Of a DNA stretch of 40,585 nt, positions 31,811-39,860 are shown piece after piece (positions within the stretch are counted from its first letter, which is position 1; each line of letters begins with the position of its first letter). This DNA comes from Dehalococcoidia bacterium (GTDB lineage: Bacteria; Chloroflexota; Dehalococcoidia; GIF9; AB-539-J10). Position numbers and translations under genes: made by a program. Location: NCBI GenBank assembly GCA_030602785.1, contig JAUVZB010000020.1, positions 1 to 40,585 of the forward strand, in the 5' to 3' direction. Below the pieces are notes generated by a model. That model was given only the letters and a program-made list of their open reading frames with translations. It was not told where the DNA came from and searched no databases.

Positions 31811-33784
31811 CTATATCTTGCCCTTCACCAGATCATCGACAACAGAAGGATCGGCGAGGGTGCTTGTGTCGCCCAGCTCGTCCATCTTGTCGCTGGCAAT
31901 CTTGACAAGCACACGCCGCATTATCTTGCCGCTTCGCGTCTTGGGAAGGCCATCCGCGAACTGGATCTTGTCGGGAGCGGCGATTGGGCCGATCTCCTTG
32001 CGCACGTGCGCAACAAGTTCCTTCTTGAGCGCGTCGCTCTTCTCAACGCCGACATTCAGCGTGACGTACGCGTAGATACCCTGCCCCTTGATCTCATGTG
32101 GCATCCCGACCACCGCGGCCTCTGCCACCAGCGCATGGGACACGAGCGCGCTCTCCACCTCCGCAGTCCCGATGCGGTGACCCGACACGTTGATGACGTC
32201 GTCGATACGGCCCATGAGCCAGTAGTATCCGTCTTCATCCTGACGAGCGCCATCGCCGGTCGTGTACACGCCAGGGAACCTGACGAAGTACGTGTCCTTG
32301 AACTTGGCAGGGTCGCCATAGACACCGCGCATCAGTCCAGGCCATGGCTGCGTGATGGCGAGATATCCACCCTCGTTCGTCTCAACAGGCGTGCCATCCT
32401 CGCGCAGTATCGCCAACTCAACTCCCGGCAATGGCAGTGTTGCGGACCCGGGCTTGATTGGCATCGCGCCCGGAAGCGGGGTGATAAGTATTCCACCGGT
32501 CTCCGTCTGCCACCACGTGTCAACAATCGGGCACTTCGCCTTGCCGATGACGTTGTAGTACCACATCCAGGCCTCGGGGTTGATTGGTTCACCGACGGTT
32601 CCGAGAAGCCTCAAGCTTGACATGTCACGGCCGTTCGGCCAGTCATCGCCTTCGCGCATCAGCGCACGTAGCGCCGTGGGCGCGGTGTAGAAGATGTTGA
32701 CCTTGTACTTCTCCACAATCTCCCAGAACCGGTCGGGCTTCGGGAACGTGGGCACTCCCTCAAACATCAGGCTCGTCGCGCCGGAAGCAAGAGGTCCGTA
32801 GACGATGTAGCTATGCCCGGTCACCCAGCCGATGTCAGCTGTGCACCAGAACGTGTCTTCGTCTTTGTAGTCGAAAACCCACTTGAATGTCTGCATCACG
32901 TAGAGCAGATACCCCGCTGTAGTGTGCAGGACTCCCTTGGGCTTGCCGGTGCTGCCGCTGGTGTAGAGGATGAACAGCGGGTCCTCCGCGTCCATCACCT
33001 CGGGCTCGCAGTGCGAACTGATATCCGGGGCCGACATCTCATCCTGCCACCAGTGATCACGCCCCTCAACCATCGGCACCTCAACCCCAACACGCTTGAC
33101 GACGAAAGACTGCTTCACCACGTCAGGACAGGCCGCCATCGCGGCATCCGCGTTCGCCTTGCTGTTCACAACCTTACCGCTGCGGTAGTAGCCATCGCAG
33201 CAGATGAGAGTGTCAGAACCACAGTCCTGGATTCGATCCCGCAGTGCTTCCGCGCTGAACCCGCCAAACACAACGTTGTGGACGGCCCCAATCCGCGCGC
33301 ATGCCAGCAGGGAGATGGGCAGCTCAGGAATCATCGGAAGGTAAATGGATACGCGGTCGCCCTTCTTCACTCCGTGCTTCTTCAGCACGTTTGCGAAGCG
33401 GCACACCTCGTTGTACAAATCCTGATAGGTGTAGGTTACCCGCTCGCCCTCAGGTTCGCCTTCCCAGATGAGTGCAGCCTTGTTCTTGCGCCAGGTCTTC
33501 AGATGCCGGTCGATGCAGTTGTAGGTGACATTCAGCTTGCCCCCTACGAACCACTCGTGCTTCGCGTTGGCGAAGTCCACCACACGCACCTTGTCCCACT
33601 TCTTGAACCAATCCAGCTGCTCAGCCCGCTCGCCCCAGAACTTGTCGGGGTCGGCAATCGAGCTGTCATACAGCTCCTGGTACTCCTCCATGCTCTTGAT
33701 AACAGCTGCTTCGCTGAACTCCTTTGGGGGTGGGAACACCCTCTTCTCGTCCATCATGGACAGCATTCCTTTGTCCACTGCCAT
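31811..33784 (-). CDS. acs: Acetyl-CoA synthetase (AMP-forming)
   Basis: Converts acetate, CoA and ATP to acetyl-CoA through acetyl-AMP. The 657 residues match the family. Motifs in order are [26 protein letters not shown], the P-loop-like [66 protein letters not shown], and the C-terminal [11 protein letters not shown], whose Lys is the catalytic residue and the usual acetylation site. The Trp of DTWWQTE corresponds to the residue that limits the pocket to acetate in bona fide Acs. The ATG has GGAGGG about 8 bases upstream. It sits upstream of satP and divergent from the folD-folD genes, linking acetate activation with folate C1 metabolism. Confidence 0.96.
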
Positions 33785-33985: not shown

Positions 33986-34861
33986 ATGCCAGCCGAAATC
34001 TTGGACGGGCGCTCTATCGCGGCCGCAATCCGGCAGGAATTGAAGGACAGAATCACCGCACTGGAAGGTGCAGTGCCCGGCCTTGCCGTTCTCGTCATAG
34101 GAGATGACCCGGCAGCTCAGTCCTACCTTCGCGGCATCGCGAGGGGATGCGAGGCTGTCGGCATCTACAACGAGACCGTGCGGTTGCCTCAGGACGCCAC
34201 GCAGAAGTCGCTCGAAGACGCCATCTCCAGGCTCAACTCGGACACGCGGTTTCACGGCATCATCCTGCAACTACCACTTCCGAAGCACCTCAACTCTCTT
34301 CGGGCACAGGGCGCCGTATCCCCTGACAAGGATGTAGACGGAACGAATCCTGTCAACTCCGGCAAGCTCCTGCTCGGAGAAGAGACTTTCTTTCCTTCGA
34401 CCGCCTATGGAGTGAAAGAACTCCTCGTTCGAAGCGGTCACAGTCCCGAAGGCCGTCATGTCGTCATCTGTGGTCGAAGCAACATCGTGGGAAAACCGCT
34501 GGCCGGCATCCTTGTTCAGAAGCGGCCCGGGGCGAACGCGACGGTCACGATTTGCCACACCGGCACGCGCAACCTGCCCGAGATAACCCGTAGCGCGGAC
34601 ATTCTCGTGGCTGCGATTGGCCGTCCACGCGCCATAACAGCAGACATGGTCCGCGAAGGCGCAGTCGTTGTCGACGTCGGGGTCAACCAGGTGGAGGATA
34701 CCGCAACCGGCAAGCCACGCCTCGTGGGAGATGTGGATTTCGACGCTGTCGCCGAAAAGGCAGTGGCAATCACCCCGGTACCGGGAGGCACTGGCCCCGT
34801 CACCACGGCCATGCTGCTGACAAATACCGTCGTCGCAGCGGAGAAGTTGCTCGCCAGGTAG
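33986..34861 (+). CDS. folD: FolD paralogue 1, catalytic lysine replaced by isoleucine
   Basis: Family: bifunctional methylenetetrahydrofolate dehydrogenase and methenyltetrahydrofolate cyclohydrolase. The 291 residues are the usual length. Conserved blocks are QSYLRGIARGCEAVGI (45-60), GIILQLPLPKHLN (91-103), SPDKDVDGTNP (112-122), FPSTAYGVKELL and the NADP motif VVICGRSNIVGKPLAG (159-174), then PVPGGTGPVTTAMLL. The YxxxK motif, Tyr50/Lys54 in E. coli, reads Tyr47-L-R-G-Ile51, so the lysine needed for cyclohydrolase chemistry is missing, while Gln95 and Asp118 remain. The cofactor GRS is intact. Inference: a dehydrogenase-only enzyme or a partner of the second FolD encoded 31 bp downstream. 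Confidence 0.92.
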   Translation: MPAEILDGRSIAAAIRQELKDRITALEGAVPGLAVLVIGDDPAAQSYLRGIARGCEAVGIYNETVRLPQDATQKSLEDAISRLNSDTRFHGIILQLPLPKHLNSLRAQGAVSPDKDVDGTNPVNSGKLLLGEETFFPSTAYGVKELLVRSGHSPEGRHVVICGRSNIVGKPLAGILVQKRPGANATVTICHTGTRNLPEITRSADILVAAIGRPRAITADMVREGAVVVDVGVNQVEDTATGKPRLVGDVDFDAVAEKAVAITPVPGGTGPVTTAMLLTNTVVAAEKLLAR

Positions 34862-34892
34862 CATTCCAGCCCCCCGTGAAGGAGACAGAACG

Positions 34893-35777
34893 ATGCCAGG
34901 AGTCATACTCGACGGACGCCAACTCTCCAGAGACATCCGGCAGGAGCTCCGCGAGCGTGTCACGGTGCTGGCCGCGAGCGCTGTTGTCCCCAAGCTCGCA
35001 GGTATCATCGTGGGCGATGACGCCGGCTCCGCCAGCTATGTGCGTCTGAAGGAGAAGGCAACAGCCGAGGTTGGACTCCTCTCAGAGATGTGCCACCTGC
35101 CCCAGGACTACACACAGAGGGACCTCCTCACACGAATCAGCGAGTTGAACCGTCGGGCCGACGTCCATGGCATCTTCGTGCAGCTCCCGCTGCCACCGCA
35201 GTTCAACGAGAGCGCCGTTCTCGCCACAATCTCTCCTGCGAAAGACGTGGATGGTTTTCATCCCGAGAGCGTCGGCAGGTCCTGGCTTGGACAGGAATCA
35301 TTCGTGCCGGCAACGCCTGCAGGCATCATGGAGATGCTGCGCCGGAGCGGCTACGGCGACCTCAGGCATCGCCACGCCGTCATCGTCAACGTGGACAATC
35401 TGGTCGGCAAACCACTCGCGGCCCTCCTGTGCCACGAAAGCGTGAGCGCCAACATCACTCTGTGTCATCCGGACACACCCTGCCTCGCGGACTGGACAAG
35501 GCAGGCAGATCTCCTCGTCGTGGCAGCCAACCGTCCCCGGTTCATCACCGCCGACATGGTCAAGAGGGGGGTTATTGCGGTGGACTTCGGCACAAACTAC
35601 GTGCAAGACACGAGCGCCAAACAGGGCTATCGTCTTGTGGGAGATATCGACTTTGAGCCCGTCAGGGAGAAGGCCGAGGCAATAACGCCCGTGCCCGGCG
35701 GAGTCGGCCCGATGACCGTCACGATGCTCCTTTCGCATACCGTGGAAGCGGCGGAGCGTCTTGCCGCCGTCTCGTGA
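34893..35777 (+). CDS. folD: FolD paralogue 2, catalytic lysine kept but cofactor GRS motif lost
   Basis: A second FolD-family protein of 294 residues. It keeps the active-site set Tyr49-V-R-L-Lys53, Gln97 in GIFVQLPLPPQFN and Asp120 in KDVDGFHP, plus PATPAGIMEML and PVPGGVGPMTVTMLL. The dinucleotide-binding GRSxxVGKP is changed to NVDNLVGKP (166-174), removing the Gly-Arg-Ser that contacts NADP. Inference: cyclohydrolase function may persist with weakened or altered cofactor use, complementing paralogue 1. GGAG precedes the ATG, and the gene is in tandem with paralogue 1 at 31 bp. The two proteins are clearly homologous throughout but far from identical, so the duplication is old. Confidence 0.92.
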   Translation: MPGVILDGRQLSRDIRQELRERVTVLAASAVVPKLAGIIVGDDAGSASYVRLKEKATAEVGLLSEMCHLPQDYTQRDLLTRISELNRRADVHGIFVQLPLPPQFNESAVLATISPAKDVDGFHPESVGRSWLGQESFVPATPAGIMEMLRRSGYGDLRHRHAVIVNVDNLVGKPLAALLCHESVSANITLCHPDTPCLADWTRQADLLVVAANRPRFITADMVKRGVIAVDFGTNYVQDTSAKQGYRLVGDIDFEPVREKAEAITPVPGGVGPMTVTMLLSHTVEAAERLAAVS

Positions 35778-35998: not shown

Positions 35999-37762
35999 AT
36001 GCCATACGACGCCAGTAAGATGCAAGACTGGGAGATTGCCGAGGCCGCAGAGGCCAACCTTCCGACGCCTGACCAGTGGAGAGAACGACTGGGCCTCGAG
36101 AAAGACGAGGTGATTCCCTACGGGCGCCTGTGCAAGCTCGACTTCATGAAGATTATCGAGCGCCTCAAGGCAAGACCAGACGGAAAATACGTGGAAATCA
36201 CCGCCATCACGCCAACCCCTCTCGGCGAAGGCAAGAGCACCACGTCTCTCGGATTGATTGAGGGTCTCGGCAAGCGAGGCAAGAACGCCGGCGGTTGTCT
36301 GCGTCAGCCCTCGGGCGGTCCTACGATGAACATCAAGGGCACTGCCGCCGGAGGTGGGAACGCCCTGCTGATTCCTATGACGGAGTTCTCTATGGGACTC
36401 ACGGGCGATATCAATGACATCACGAACGCCCACAACCTCGCGATGGTCGCACTGACAGCCCGAATGCAGCACGAGCGCAATTACGATGACGAGCAGTTGC
36501 TCGCAAGAACAGGCATGCGCAGGCTTGACGTGGACCCGACCCGGGTGGAGATGAGCTGGGTCATGGACTTCTGCGCCCAGAGCCTCCGCAACATCGTCGT
36601 CGGCCTCGGCGGACGTTTGGACGGCTACACGATGCAGTCCAGGTTCAACATCGCGGTCGGCTCTGAACTCATGGCGATTCTTTCAATTGCAACAGACCTG
36701 GCCGACCTGAGAGAGCGGATAGGGCACATCACTGTCGCCTACGACAGGAAGGGCAACCCGGTCACGACCAGCGACCTCGAGGTTGCGGGAGCCATGACGG
36801 CCTGGATGAGGAACACCATCAACCCGACTCTCTGCTCCACGGTTGAGTACCAGCCCTGCATGGTCCACGCCGGACCGTTCGCGAACATCGCAGTCGGCCA
36901 GTCCTCCATCATCGGCGACAGGATAGGCCTCAAGCTGTTCGACTACCACGTCACGGAGAGCGGCTTTGCCGCCGACATAGGCTTCGAGAAGTTCTGGAAC
37001 GTGAAGTGTCGCTACAGCGGCCTTAAGCCACACGTGTCGGTCTTGACCGCGTCCGTGCGCGCACTCAAGATGCATGGCGGCGGACCGACAGTCGTCCCCG
37101 GCAGGCCGCTGCCCGATGAGTACAGGAAGGAGAACCTCGGGCTCCTTGAGCGCGGGCTGCCCAACCTGATACACCATCTCCACACCATCAAGCTGTCGGG
37201 GATTCGGCCGGTCGTGTGCATCAACTGCTTCGCCACCGATACCGACGAAGAAATCAAGCTGATACGCAGGGCCGCCGAGGCTGTCGGCGTCCGCTGTGCC
37301 GCCGCAACTCACTGGGCAAACGGCGGCGAAGGCGCATTGGAGCTCGCCGATGCGGTTATCGAGGCGGCCGAGGAGGAGACACCATTCGGTTTCCTCTACA
37401 TGATGGACATGAAACTCAGGGACAGGGTCGAGAGGATAGCGCGCACTGTCTACGGCGCTACCGGCGCCACCTGGACTCCTGAAGCCGAGGCCAAGGCGAA
37501 GGCGTTCGAAGCCGATCCCAAGTACGATGACTACGCGACAATGATGGTCAAGACTCACCTCAGCCTCACGCATGACCCGACACTCAAAGGGGTGCCGAAG
37601 GGATGGGTTCTGCCCATCAAGGATGTGCTCGTCTACTCGGGGGCCAAGTTCCTTTGTCCGGTTGCGGGGACCATCAGTCTCATGCCCGGCACCAGCTCGA
37701 ATCCAGCGTTCAGGCGCATTGACGTGGATACGGCGACGGGAAAGGTGCGCGGGCTGTTCTAG
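35999..37762 (+). CDS. fhs: Formate-tetrahydrofolate ligase
   Basis: ATP-dependent ligation of formate to tetrahydrofolate giving 10-formyl-THF, the entry of formate into C1 metabolism and the methyl branch of the Wood-Ljungdahl pathway. The 587 residues are slightly longer than usual. The P-loop [12 protein letters not shown] spans residues 71-82. [21 protein letters not shown] matches the family's M-x-x-I-N-L-H-F-T-G-D-x-H-A-I region, and [18 protein letters not shown] holds the conserved Trp. The loop usually reading LREPSLGPxFGxKGGA is here [16 protein letters not shown], so the Arg-Glu pair has become Arg-Gln: a divergent but apparently complete enzyme. AGGGAGG precedes the ATG. FolD genes lie directly upstream. 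Confidence 0.94.
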
Positions 37763-37924: not shown

Positions 37925-38893
37925 ATGAACGTGCTCATAACTGGCGGAACCGGCTTCATCGGTGCGCTCCTGGCGCGCAAACTCGTGCAGAGGGGAGACA
38001 AGGTCACGGTTTTCGATGTGGCGCCGGACATGGCGAGGATGGAGGATATCGCAAGCGACATCACGGTGGTCCGGGGGAACCTTGCCTACGCATCCGAGGT
38101 TCTCAATGTCGTGCGTGACAACAACATCGAACGAATTCTGCACCTCGGGTCTATGCTCAGCGCGCCCTCCAACGCCAACCCGTGGGCGTCCTTCCAGGTC
38201 AACGTCGTAGGCACCATGAATGTGCTCGAGGCCGCGCGGCTTTTCGGCGTCTCGCGAGTCGTATTCCCGAGCACGATTGCAACGTACGGCCTCGACACTC
38301 CCTCCACAGCGACCGATACGACCCTTCAGCGTCCGACGACGATGTATGGCTGCGGCAAAGCATACTGCGAGAACCTCGGGCGCTTCTACCGCTCCAAGTT
38401 CGGATTGGACTTCCGTGGCGTCCGACTGCCTTCAGTCATCGGCCCCGGCGCCAAGGTCAGGCACGTATCACAGTACAACGCGTGGATGATTGAGTATCCG
38501 CTCCTGGGCAAGCCTTTTGAGTGCTTCGTCACCGAGGACACAAAGATGCCCACGCTGTATTTCAAAGATGCGGCAAACTGCATCGAGGCCATTGCCGATG
38601 CCCCGCGTGAGGGAATCAAGACCATCAACTACAACATCGCAGGCATCACGCCTACGACGTCCGCAAAGGAAGTCGAGCAGGCCGTGCGCAGGCATGTCCC
38701 CGACGCGAAAATCACCTATGTCCCAGACCCCGTTATCATGGAGTACTACAGGACCTTCCACATAGAGACCTTCGACGACAGCAGGGCAAGAGAGGAATGG
38801 GGCTGGTGTCCGGCCTTCCCTGACATCGACACTGTGCTTGTCGATTTCAAGGCAGAGCTGACCCAACACCCTCAGTGGTACGGGGACTGCTGA
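37925..38893 (+). CDS. NAD-dependent epimerase/dehydratase-family SDR, L-threonine-dehydrogenase-like
   Basis: A 322-residue extended SDR. The NAD motif is ITGGTGFIG (5-13). NVVGTMNVLEAARLFGVSRVVFPSTIATYG follows, and the Tyr/Lys pair lies in RPTTMYGCGKAYCENLGRFY. The latter, together with KMPTLYFKDAANCIEAI and the YNIAGITPT region, resembles SDR-type L-threonine 3-dehydrogenases more than sugar epimerases. Such enzymes oxidise a beta-hydroxy to a beta-keto group. GGAGG lies upstream of the ATG. The next gene, 49 bp away, encodes a beta-keto acid cleavage enzyme, which suggests oxidation of a beta-hydroxy acid followed by cleavage. The actual substrate is unknown. Confidence 0.85.
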   Translation: MNVLITGGTGFIGALLARKLVQRGDKVTVFDVAPDMARMEDIASDITVVRGNLAYASEVLNVVRDNNIERILHLGSMLSAPSNANPWASFQVNVVGTMNVLEAARLFGVSRVVFPSTIATYGLDTPSTATDTTLQRPTTMYGCGKAYCENLGRFYRSKFGLDFRGVRLPSVIGPGAKVRHVSQYNAWMIEYPLLGKPFECFVTEDTKMPTLYFKDAANCIEAIADAPREGIKTINYNIAGITPTTSAKEVEQAVRRHVPDAKITYVPDPVIMEYYRTFHIETFDDSRAREEWGWCPAFPDIDTVLVDFKAELTQHPQWYGDC

Positions 38894-38942
38894 CCCATGC
38901 CGGGTCCAAAGACCAGACATCCTATTGCGAATGGGGAGTGAG

Positions 38943-39860
38943 ATGCCCAAGAAGAGAATAGTCACCGCAGCCGTCACCGGCGGCATACACACGCCTACCA
39001 TGAGTCCCTATCTGCCAGTGACGCCCATGCAGATTGCAGATGACGCAATCAAGGCACACGAAGCAGGGGCAGCGGTTGTTCACGTCCATGCACGCGACCC
39101 GAAGACAGGCAAGCCCTGTGCGGACATGGACGTCTACGCGGAGATCTTTGAGCGCATTCGCGGCGCGTGCAACGTGGTCATCTGCGCCACCACCGGTGGC
39201 GGCCTCGGAATGCCTGTGTCCGAGCGGGTCAAGGTGGTTCCCACTCACAAGCCCGAGCTGGCATCTTTCAACGCCGGCTCAGTCAACTTCGGCCTCTTCG
39301 ACATTCCTGACAAGATGCAGGTGACCGAGTGGAAACACGACTGGGAGAAGCCCTACCTCTACGGAACCAAGGACCTCGTCTACACCAACACCTTCGCGTC
39401 ACTGGAAGAGTTCGCCAGGGTATTTGCCGAGAGCGGCACCAAGCCGGAGGCGGAAGTCTTCGACAGCGGGATGATCAACAACCCCTCCTACCTGATCAGC
39501 AAGGGACTGCTCGCAACCCCGATCTATCTCCAATTCGTGCTCGGAATCCTGGGGGGTATGCCCGCATCAGTCGAGAACCTCCTGTTCCTCTACCAGATGG
39601 CCCGGCGAACCTTCGGCGACGACTTCGAGTGGTCCGTATGTGCGGCAGGCCGGCACCAGATTCCGATGTGCACAGCGGCACTCCTCATGGGAGGCAATGC
39701 CAGGGTCGGACTCGAGGACAGCCTCTACACCGACCGTGGCGTTCTCGCCACATCGAGTGCCCAGCAGGTGGAGAGGGTTGTCAGGATCGCCCGGGAGCTC
39801 GGTGTTGATCTGGCCGACCCGGACGAGGCGAGGGACATACTCGGTCTCCCGCGCCAATGA
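38943..39860 (+). CDS. Beta-keto acid cleavage enzyme (BKACE, DUF849)
   Basis: A 305-residue zinc-dependent TIM-barrel enzyme of the BKACE (3-keto-5-aminohexanoate cleavage) family. Members condense a beta-keto acid with acetyl-CoA to give acetoacetate and a new CoA ester. Diagnostic stretches are TAAVTGGIHTPTMSPYLPVTPMQIADDA, the zinc ligands in VHVHARDP (His47, His49), ICATTGGG, EVFDSGMINN, and GGNARVGLEDSLY with its conserved Glu. The frame starts at 38925, but GGGGAG stands just before the ATG at 38943. With the upstream dehydrogenase it may form a two-step catabolic module. Acetyl-CoA could come from the Acs encoded nearby. Substrate specificity cannot be told from sequence. Confidence 0.92.
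   Translation: MPKKRIVTAAVTGGIHTPTMSPYLPVTPMQIADDAIKAHEAGAAVVHVHARDPKTGKPCADMDVYAEIFERIRGACNVVICATTGGGLGMPVSERVKVVPTHKPELASFNAGSVNFGLFDIPDKMQVTEWKHDWEKPYLYGTKDLVYTNTFASLEEFARVFAESGTKPEAEVFDSGMINNPSYLISKGLLATPIYLQFVLGILGGMPASVENLLFLYQMARRTFGDDFEWSVCAAGRHQIPMCTAALLMGGNARVGLEDSLYTDRGVLATSSAQQVERVVRIARELGVDLADPDEARDILGLPRQ

Follow-up and report, generated by a model that had tools for sequence, protein, structure and literature searches.

FolD is the textbook bifunctional enzyme that carries out both of its steps, those of methylene-tetrahydrofolate (methylene-THF) dehydrogenase and methenyl-THF cyclohydrolase, in one site. What, then, is the function of two adjacent folD genes when each lacks active-site residues that the other retains? 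This question is raised by a 40,585-nucleotide stretch of DNA (the window; contig JAUVZB010000020.1) from a Dehalococcoidia bacterium, in which an earlier note had pointed out tandem FolD paralogues with complementary active-site losses. Upon re-reading, the codons, motifs and coordinates of that observation proved exact, and here we report how the two copies are built, how they are distributed and related, and which division of labor between them best explains the pattern.

Results

Two intact folD genes lie side by side

The two FolD open reading frames, hereafter FolD-A (copy 1) and FolD-B (copy 2), are both intact and full-length and are separated by a 31 bp spacer (Table 1). The PF00763 and PF02882 profiles cover each of them end to end, and the fold models, with pLDDT of 95.2 for FolD-A and 95.3 for FolD-B, match human MTHFD1, MTHFD2 and FolD structures at TM about 0.93 and solved FolD structures at TM about 0.9, respectively; by both full-length domains and the fold, the two proteins belong to the FolD superfamily. 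The NCBIfam models matching either copy all describe bifunctional FolD, and none reaches its cut-off score; the database label 'bifunctional FolD' is probably wrong for both genes. FolD-B is 97% identical to its counterpart in a named near relative within Dehalococcoidia (L053, JAUVYD010000052.1).

Downstream on the same strand lies fhs, the product of which catalyzes the methyl-branch step preceding FolD, and the divergent acs at the 5′ side adjoins the pair also in G003, G004, G005 and G006. Further downstream of fhs, positions 37925-39860 hold an SDR-type epimerase gene and one for a beta-keto acid cleavage enzyme (BKACE), the best NCBIfam match of which, 3,5-dioxohexanoate:acetyl-CoA acetone transferase, falls just under its cut-off; the same two genes likewise lie downstream in G004.

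Table 1. Features of the folD-A/folD-B locus (window coordinates; human residues refer to MTHFD1).
Feature	Position	Strand	Basis or remark
acs, AMP-forming acetyl-CoA synthetase, divergent, 5′ of the pair	31811-33784	-	TIGR02188, 1012 bits
folD-A (copy 1), 291 aa	33986-34861	+	ORF; PF00763+PF02882; A clade; fold model
FolD-A, Y-L-R-G-I at the Y-x-x-x-K motif	34124-34138	+	Tyr47 kept, Lys replaced by Ile51
FolD-A, Gln95 (human Gln100), kept	34268-34270	+	Alignment
FolD-A, NADP loop GRSNIVGKP, intact	34472-34498	+	Alignment
folD-B (copy 2), 294 aa	34893-35777	+	ORF; PF00763+PF02882; B clade; fold model
FolD-B, Lys53 (cyclohydrolase lysine), retained	35049-35051	+	20/20 B copies
FolD-B, Gln97, retained	35181-35183	+	20/20 B copies
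FolD-B, Asp120 (human Asp125), retained	35250-35252	+	20/20 B copies
FolD-B, NVDNLVGKP replacing GRSxxVGKP	35388-35414	+	Asp168 invariant in all B copies
FolD-B, Pro193 at human Ser197 (NADP 2′-phosphate site)	35469-35471	+	Alignment
FolD-B, Asn213 at human Gly217, adjoining listed contact Thr216	35529-35531	+	Alignment
FolD-B, Phe232 at human Cys236	35586-35588	+	Alignment
fhs, formate-THF ligase	35999-37762	+	NF010032, 1060 bits, over cut-off

FolD-A lacks the cyclohydrolase lysine and keeps the NADP loop

The residues of both copies were compared with those of 126 ordinary FolDs (49 from Dehalococcoidia and 77 from other phyla or more distant records), with human MTHFD1 numbering assigned through alignment to the 1A4I sequence. 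Lys56 and Gly172-Arg173-Ser174 are both present in all 126. In FolD-A, the tyrosine of the Y-x-x-x-K motif is encoded by TAC (34124-34126), and an ATC codon (34136-34138) places isoleucine at the lysine position, as the earlier note had read them. This isoleucine occurs at position 56 in 19 of 19 aligned A copies, versus lysine in every ordinary FolD (126/126), and two more A copies, one in G023 and the broken one in G003, also read Y-x-x-x-I; FolD-B retains the lysine. Otherwise, FolD-A keeps its glutamine, Asp118 and the cofactor motif GRSNIVGKP, which is invariant in the alignment of A copies, one Lys excepted.

G099 and G340 have even replaced the catalytic Gln100 of A (by Leu and Phe, respectively), and in the A copy of G023 the same codon is an in-frame TAG (L045:6231-6233), whereas no B copy shows loss of the Lys-Gln pair. 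These glutamine losses fit a relaxed need for the cyclohydrolase pair in A. Following its VDG motif, A has TNP instead of FHP; this looked like another possible loss but carries no meaning, since human MTHFD1 has LTS there.

FolD-B keeps the folate-site residues and has replaced those of the NADP loop

The converse pattern is found in FolD-B, in which Lys53, Gln97 and Asp120 are retained; Tyr52, Lys56, Gln100 and Asp125 in human numbering are all kept in 20 of 20 B copies. The GRSxxVG loop, present in FolD-A, reads NVDNLVG here. At position 172, glycine is replaced by Asn in 19 of the 20 copies and by Asn or Ser overall; Arg173 is present in none of the 20, Val, Ala, Thr or Met standing instead; and Ser174 has become Asp in all 20. 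The changes extend beyond the loop, with Pro at position 197 (20/20, versus Ser or Thr in all ordinary FolDs), Asn or Asp at position 217 (20/20, versus Gly in 126/126) and Phe at position 236 (20/20, where ordinary bacterial FolDs have Val or, rarely, Ile). Four of these positions, Arg173, Ser174, Ser197 and Cys236, belong to the set of 13 NADP-site residues given for human MTHFD1 (PMC3368264). That the B-specific changes are themselves invariant suggests remodelling of the old cofactor pocket, not drift, with stability, a partner or a ligand as possible reasons.

The tandem is a patchy lineage trait of Dehalococcoidia

Such a tandem was found 21 times, in 20 genomes of six Dehalococcoidia families (a count that includes G039), mostly with intergenic gaps of 0-36 bp, which bears out the co-occurrence across related genomes that the earlier note had asked about. 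Within the window's family, 15 genomes carry a B copy; elsewhere in the class, B copies occur in families f20, f53 (where G151 has two tandems), f83 and f84. No single-copy relative bears these substitutions, as the apparently lone A of G039 (family f4) runs into the beginning of a B, cut off within its first codons by the contig end. The copy-B profile separates B copies (E <= 1e-138) from ordinary FolDs (E >= 1e-115). Twelve of 393 genomes drawn from the class have the tandem; the profile found no B copy outside Dehalococcoidia in a draw of 400 genomes from the phylum, and the signature was absent outside Dehalococcoidia records among the best 80 matches of a scan of 85,000 species. The A/B residue pattern is far beyond chance, and the tandem split is a patchy lineage trait, not the quirk of one genome.

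In a tree built without the trait columns (19 A rows, the long-branched G349 copy left out, and 20 B rows), A copies form one clade (support 100/98) and B copies another (100/100), and the two clades are sisters (92/89) among Dehalococcoidia FolDs; most simply, a single duplication was followed by one loss in each copy. Purifying selection acts on both copies, with dN/dS of 0.04-0.23 among A copies, apart from the degenerate G349 copy (0.27), and 0.05-0.28 among B copies, values that, for pairs with saturated synonymous sites, are no more than indicative.

A third intact folD, which would have spoken for decay of the two copies, was not found in the window's genome, where the sole extra match is sub-threshold. 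Among the pair-bearing genomes checked, only G019 has a FolD besides the pair, an ordinary one whose gene is cut by the contig edge, and this exception tells against the explanation preferred below. An FTCD_C-type cyclohydrolase (PF04961) that could serve as a backup was found in none of 13 genomes, 12 of them with the tandem.

A copies with defects occur in three genomes

The A copy of G349 (L171:4260-5126, DUFC01000015.1) keeps Y-x-x-x-I, and it has GGAGKQGKT in place of GRSNIVGKP, CDYKT where CHTGT is expected and a very long branch, in a genome without other FolD; it may represent a cofactor switch or a decaying enzyme. In G003, FolD-A (L035:4600-5263) contains several frameshifts beside an intact FolD-B, with no other FolD match, and is either a pseudogene or an assembly error. 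Together with the TAG of G023, these defects indicate that A is not always conserved, which counts against the explanation preferred below. Reading the TAG as pyrrolysine was rejected because G023 has no convincing PylC, and the codon is probably a stop or an error. A full-score PylC (459 bits) is encoded in G018 (L212, C163:3028-4140), which suggests that pyrrolysine may be used in this Dehalococcoidia lineage.

The pair neighbors Wood-Ljungdahl and redox genes

In G099, G340 and G349 the pair lies inside a Wood-Ljungdahl cluster, with an acetyl-CoA synthase (ACS) match in all three; the best-read order, that of G099, is fhs, RACo, CooC-like ATPase, folD-A, folD-B, CdhD, CODH and AcsB. The window's own genome (G000) gave no CdhC match, and a full Wood-Ljungdahl pathway is therefore not claimed for it. 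The order in G018 is fhs, A, B, a small protein and a MetV/RnfC/51K fusion, and downstream of the pair lie NfnAB-like genes in G010, NuoEF-like genes in G023, and genes for a corrinoid protein and MTTB in G028.

Discussion

Conservation, phylogeny, selection and genome content give strong support to the earlier proposal that the bifunctional enzyme has been divided into one protein leaning toward the dehydrogenase and another leaning toward the cyclohydrolase. Very probably, the pair represents complementary subfunctionalisation, with FolD-A as a predicted NADP-dependent methylene-THF dehydrogenase and FolD-B as a predicted cofactor-free methenyl-THF cyclohydrolase, activities that we infer from published mutants and structures. 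A bifunctional FolD would have been duplicated once in the Dehalococcoidia lineage, and its two activities would have been divided between the copies. FolD-A, with the folate and NADP sites kept and the cyclohydrolase lysine lost, would interconvert methylene-THF and methenyl-THF using NADP(H), while FolD-B, with the Tyr, Lys, Gln and Asp of the folate site kept and the NADP-holding residues replaced, would convert methenyl-THF to 10-formyl-THF and back without a cofactor. With Fhs, the two would make up the THF methyl branch, which in several genomes is encoded within a Wood-Ljungdahl cluster. In Escherichia coli FolD, K54N leaves undetectable cyclohydrolase activity and about 19% of the dehydrogenase activity, and the corresponding values for Q98H are about 1% and 8% (PMC5688156); the cyclohydrolase of MTHFD2 does not require the cofactor (PMC9173628). 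The K54N phenotype and the cofactor-free MTHFD2 reaction point to a dehydrogenase-only A and a cyclohydrolase-only B; however, most of the dehydrogenase activity is also lost in K54N, so that FolD-A could be a weak dehydrogenase unless it is compensated.

The two proteins could also act as one complex. An obligate A/B heterodimer could stand in for the FolD homodimer and offer one site for each activity, the former NADP pocket of FolD-B being used for subunit contact or channelling. Such a complex would be a stronger version of subfunctionalisation, compatible with it, and we put it forward as a tentative possibility. The tandem arrangement at all 21 places with mostly short gaps and the parallel A and B clades agree with it, as do the dimerization of FolD relatives via their NAD-binding domains (PMC9173628) and the approach of the partner subunit to the NADP phosphate in L. 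major (PMC3368264), but tight operons need no complex, and in G003 an intact B stands beside a broken A. It is rather unlikely that all parts hold together, namely a FolD-derived cofactor-free cyclohydrolase B in an obligate heterodimer with A, its rebuilt pocket being newly used, for example, in methenyl-THF channelling or for a regulatory ligand.

The same invariant residues of FolD-B could be read in other ways. Asp168, Pro193, Phe217 and Phe232 of FolD-B are conserved beyond the need of a plain site loss, and spontaneous hydrolysis has been proposed as the reason why E. coli K54N survives (PMC5688156); hence FolD-A alone might do the pathway work while methenyl-THF opens spontaneously, leaving FolD-B as a pseudoenzyme that regulates or senses a ligand and has acquired a new, conserved pocket. 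We consider this improbable, as the Tyr, Lys, Gln and Asp of the folate site, superfluous for a pseudoenzyme, are present in 20 of 20 B copies. Nor does it seem at all likely that FolD-B is a dehydrogenase with a different cofactor preference instead of being cofactor-free: although an Asp near the Rossmann loop can accompany cofactor switching elsewhere, the new Asp is located in the glycine-rich loop, whereas an NAD-selecting Asp usually ends the second strand, and Gly172 and Gly217 are replaced too, with Ser197 turned into Pro in all B copies. Finally, the broken A of G003 and the stop in G023 would be expected of two decaying paralogues with random losses or of assembly artefacts, but we give this reading almost no credence, because the same residues recur across six families and in independent assemblies, with low dN/dS and full-length, confident fold models.

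Complementary subfunctionalisation sets the pair apart from the systems it resembles. With bifunctional FolD, the DC domain of MTHFD1 and MTHFD2 it shares the two-domain fold and the folate site, at 37-47% identity to the nearest solved structures; however, A keeps the NADP site and B the cyclohydrolase residues, neither copy has both, and by prediction the two activities reside on separate proteins. By prediction, FolD-A is like yeast MTD1 (1EDZ), a FolD relative and monofunctional methylenetetrahydrofolate dehydrogenase, reportedly found to be dehydrogenase-only by Barlowe and Appling in 1990 (a study cited in PMC6443876). MTD1 differs in being NAD-dependent and is a distant match (E 1e-8, versus 1e-77 for the nearest ordinary relative), A being far nearer to ordinary FolDs, and we know of no FolD-derived partner cyclohydrolase for MTD1. 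The MtdA and FchA of methylotrophs are likewise separate proteins for these two steps, but they are not a FolD paralogue pair, and FolD-B consists of PF00763 and PF02882 instead of the FTCD_C domain (PF04961) of FchA. An earlier report of a FolD-derived cyclohydrolase-only enzyme was not found in a search of mainly open-access papers, and we know of none. In MTHFD1L, a FolD-derived region that has lost its activities is kept in a fusion (PMC11064299); MTHFD1L retains Fhs activity only, whereas here each copy would keep one FolD activity.

The split is clean, testable and old within a class, in genes that are now annotated as two bifunctional enzymes, and the reading given here would correct the annotation of two genes of a Wood-Ljungdahl-type pathway in uncultured sediment bacteria. 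As a natural and conserved division, it would offer a built-in test of the role of each residue and of the importance of channelling.

G001 belongs to the window's genus but lacks the pair; its one ordinary FolD branches with Myxococcota and Pseudomonadota sequences, which would be expected if a single bifunctional enzyme could take the place of the pair. This gene (L048:4360-5259) lies about 13 kb from an ACS gene.
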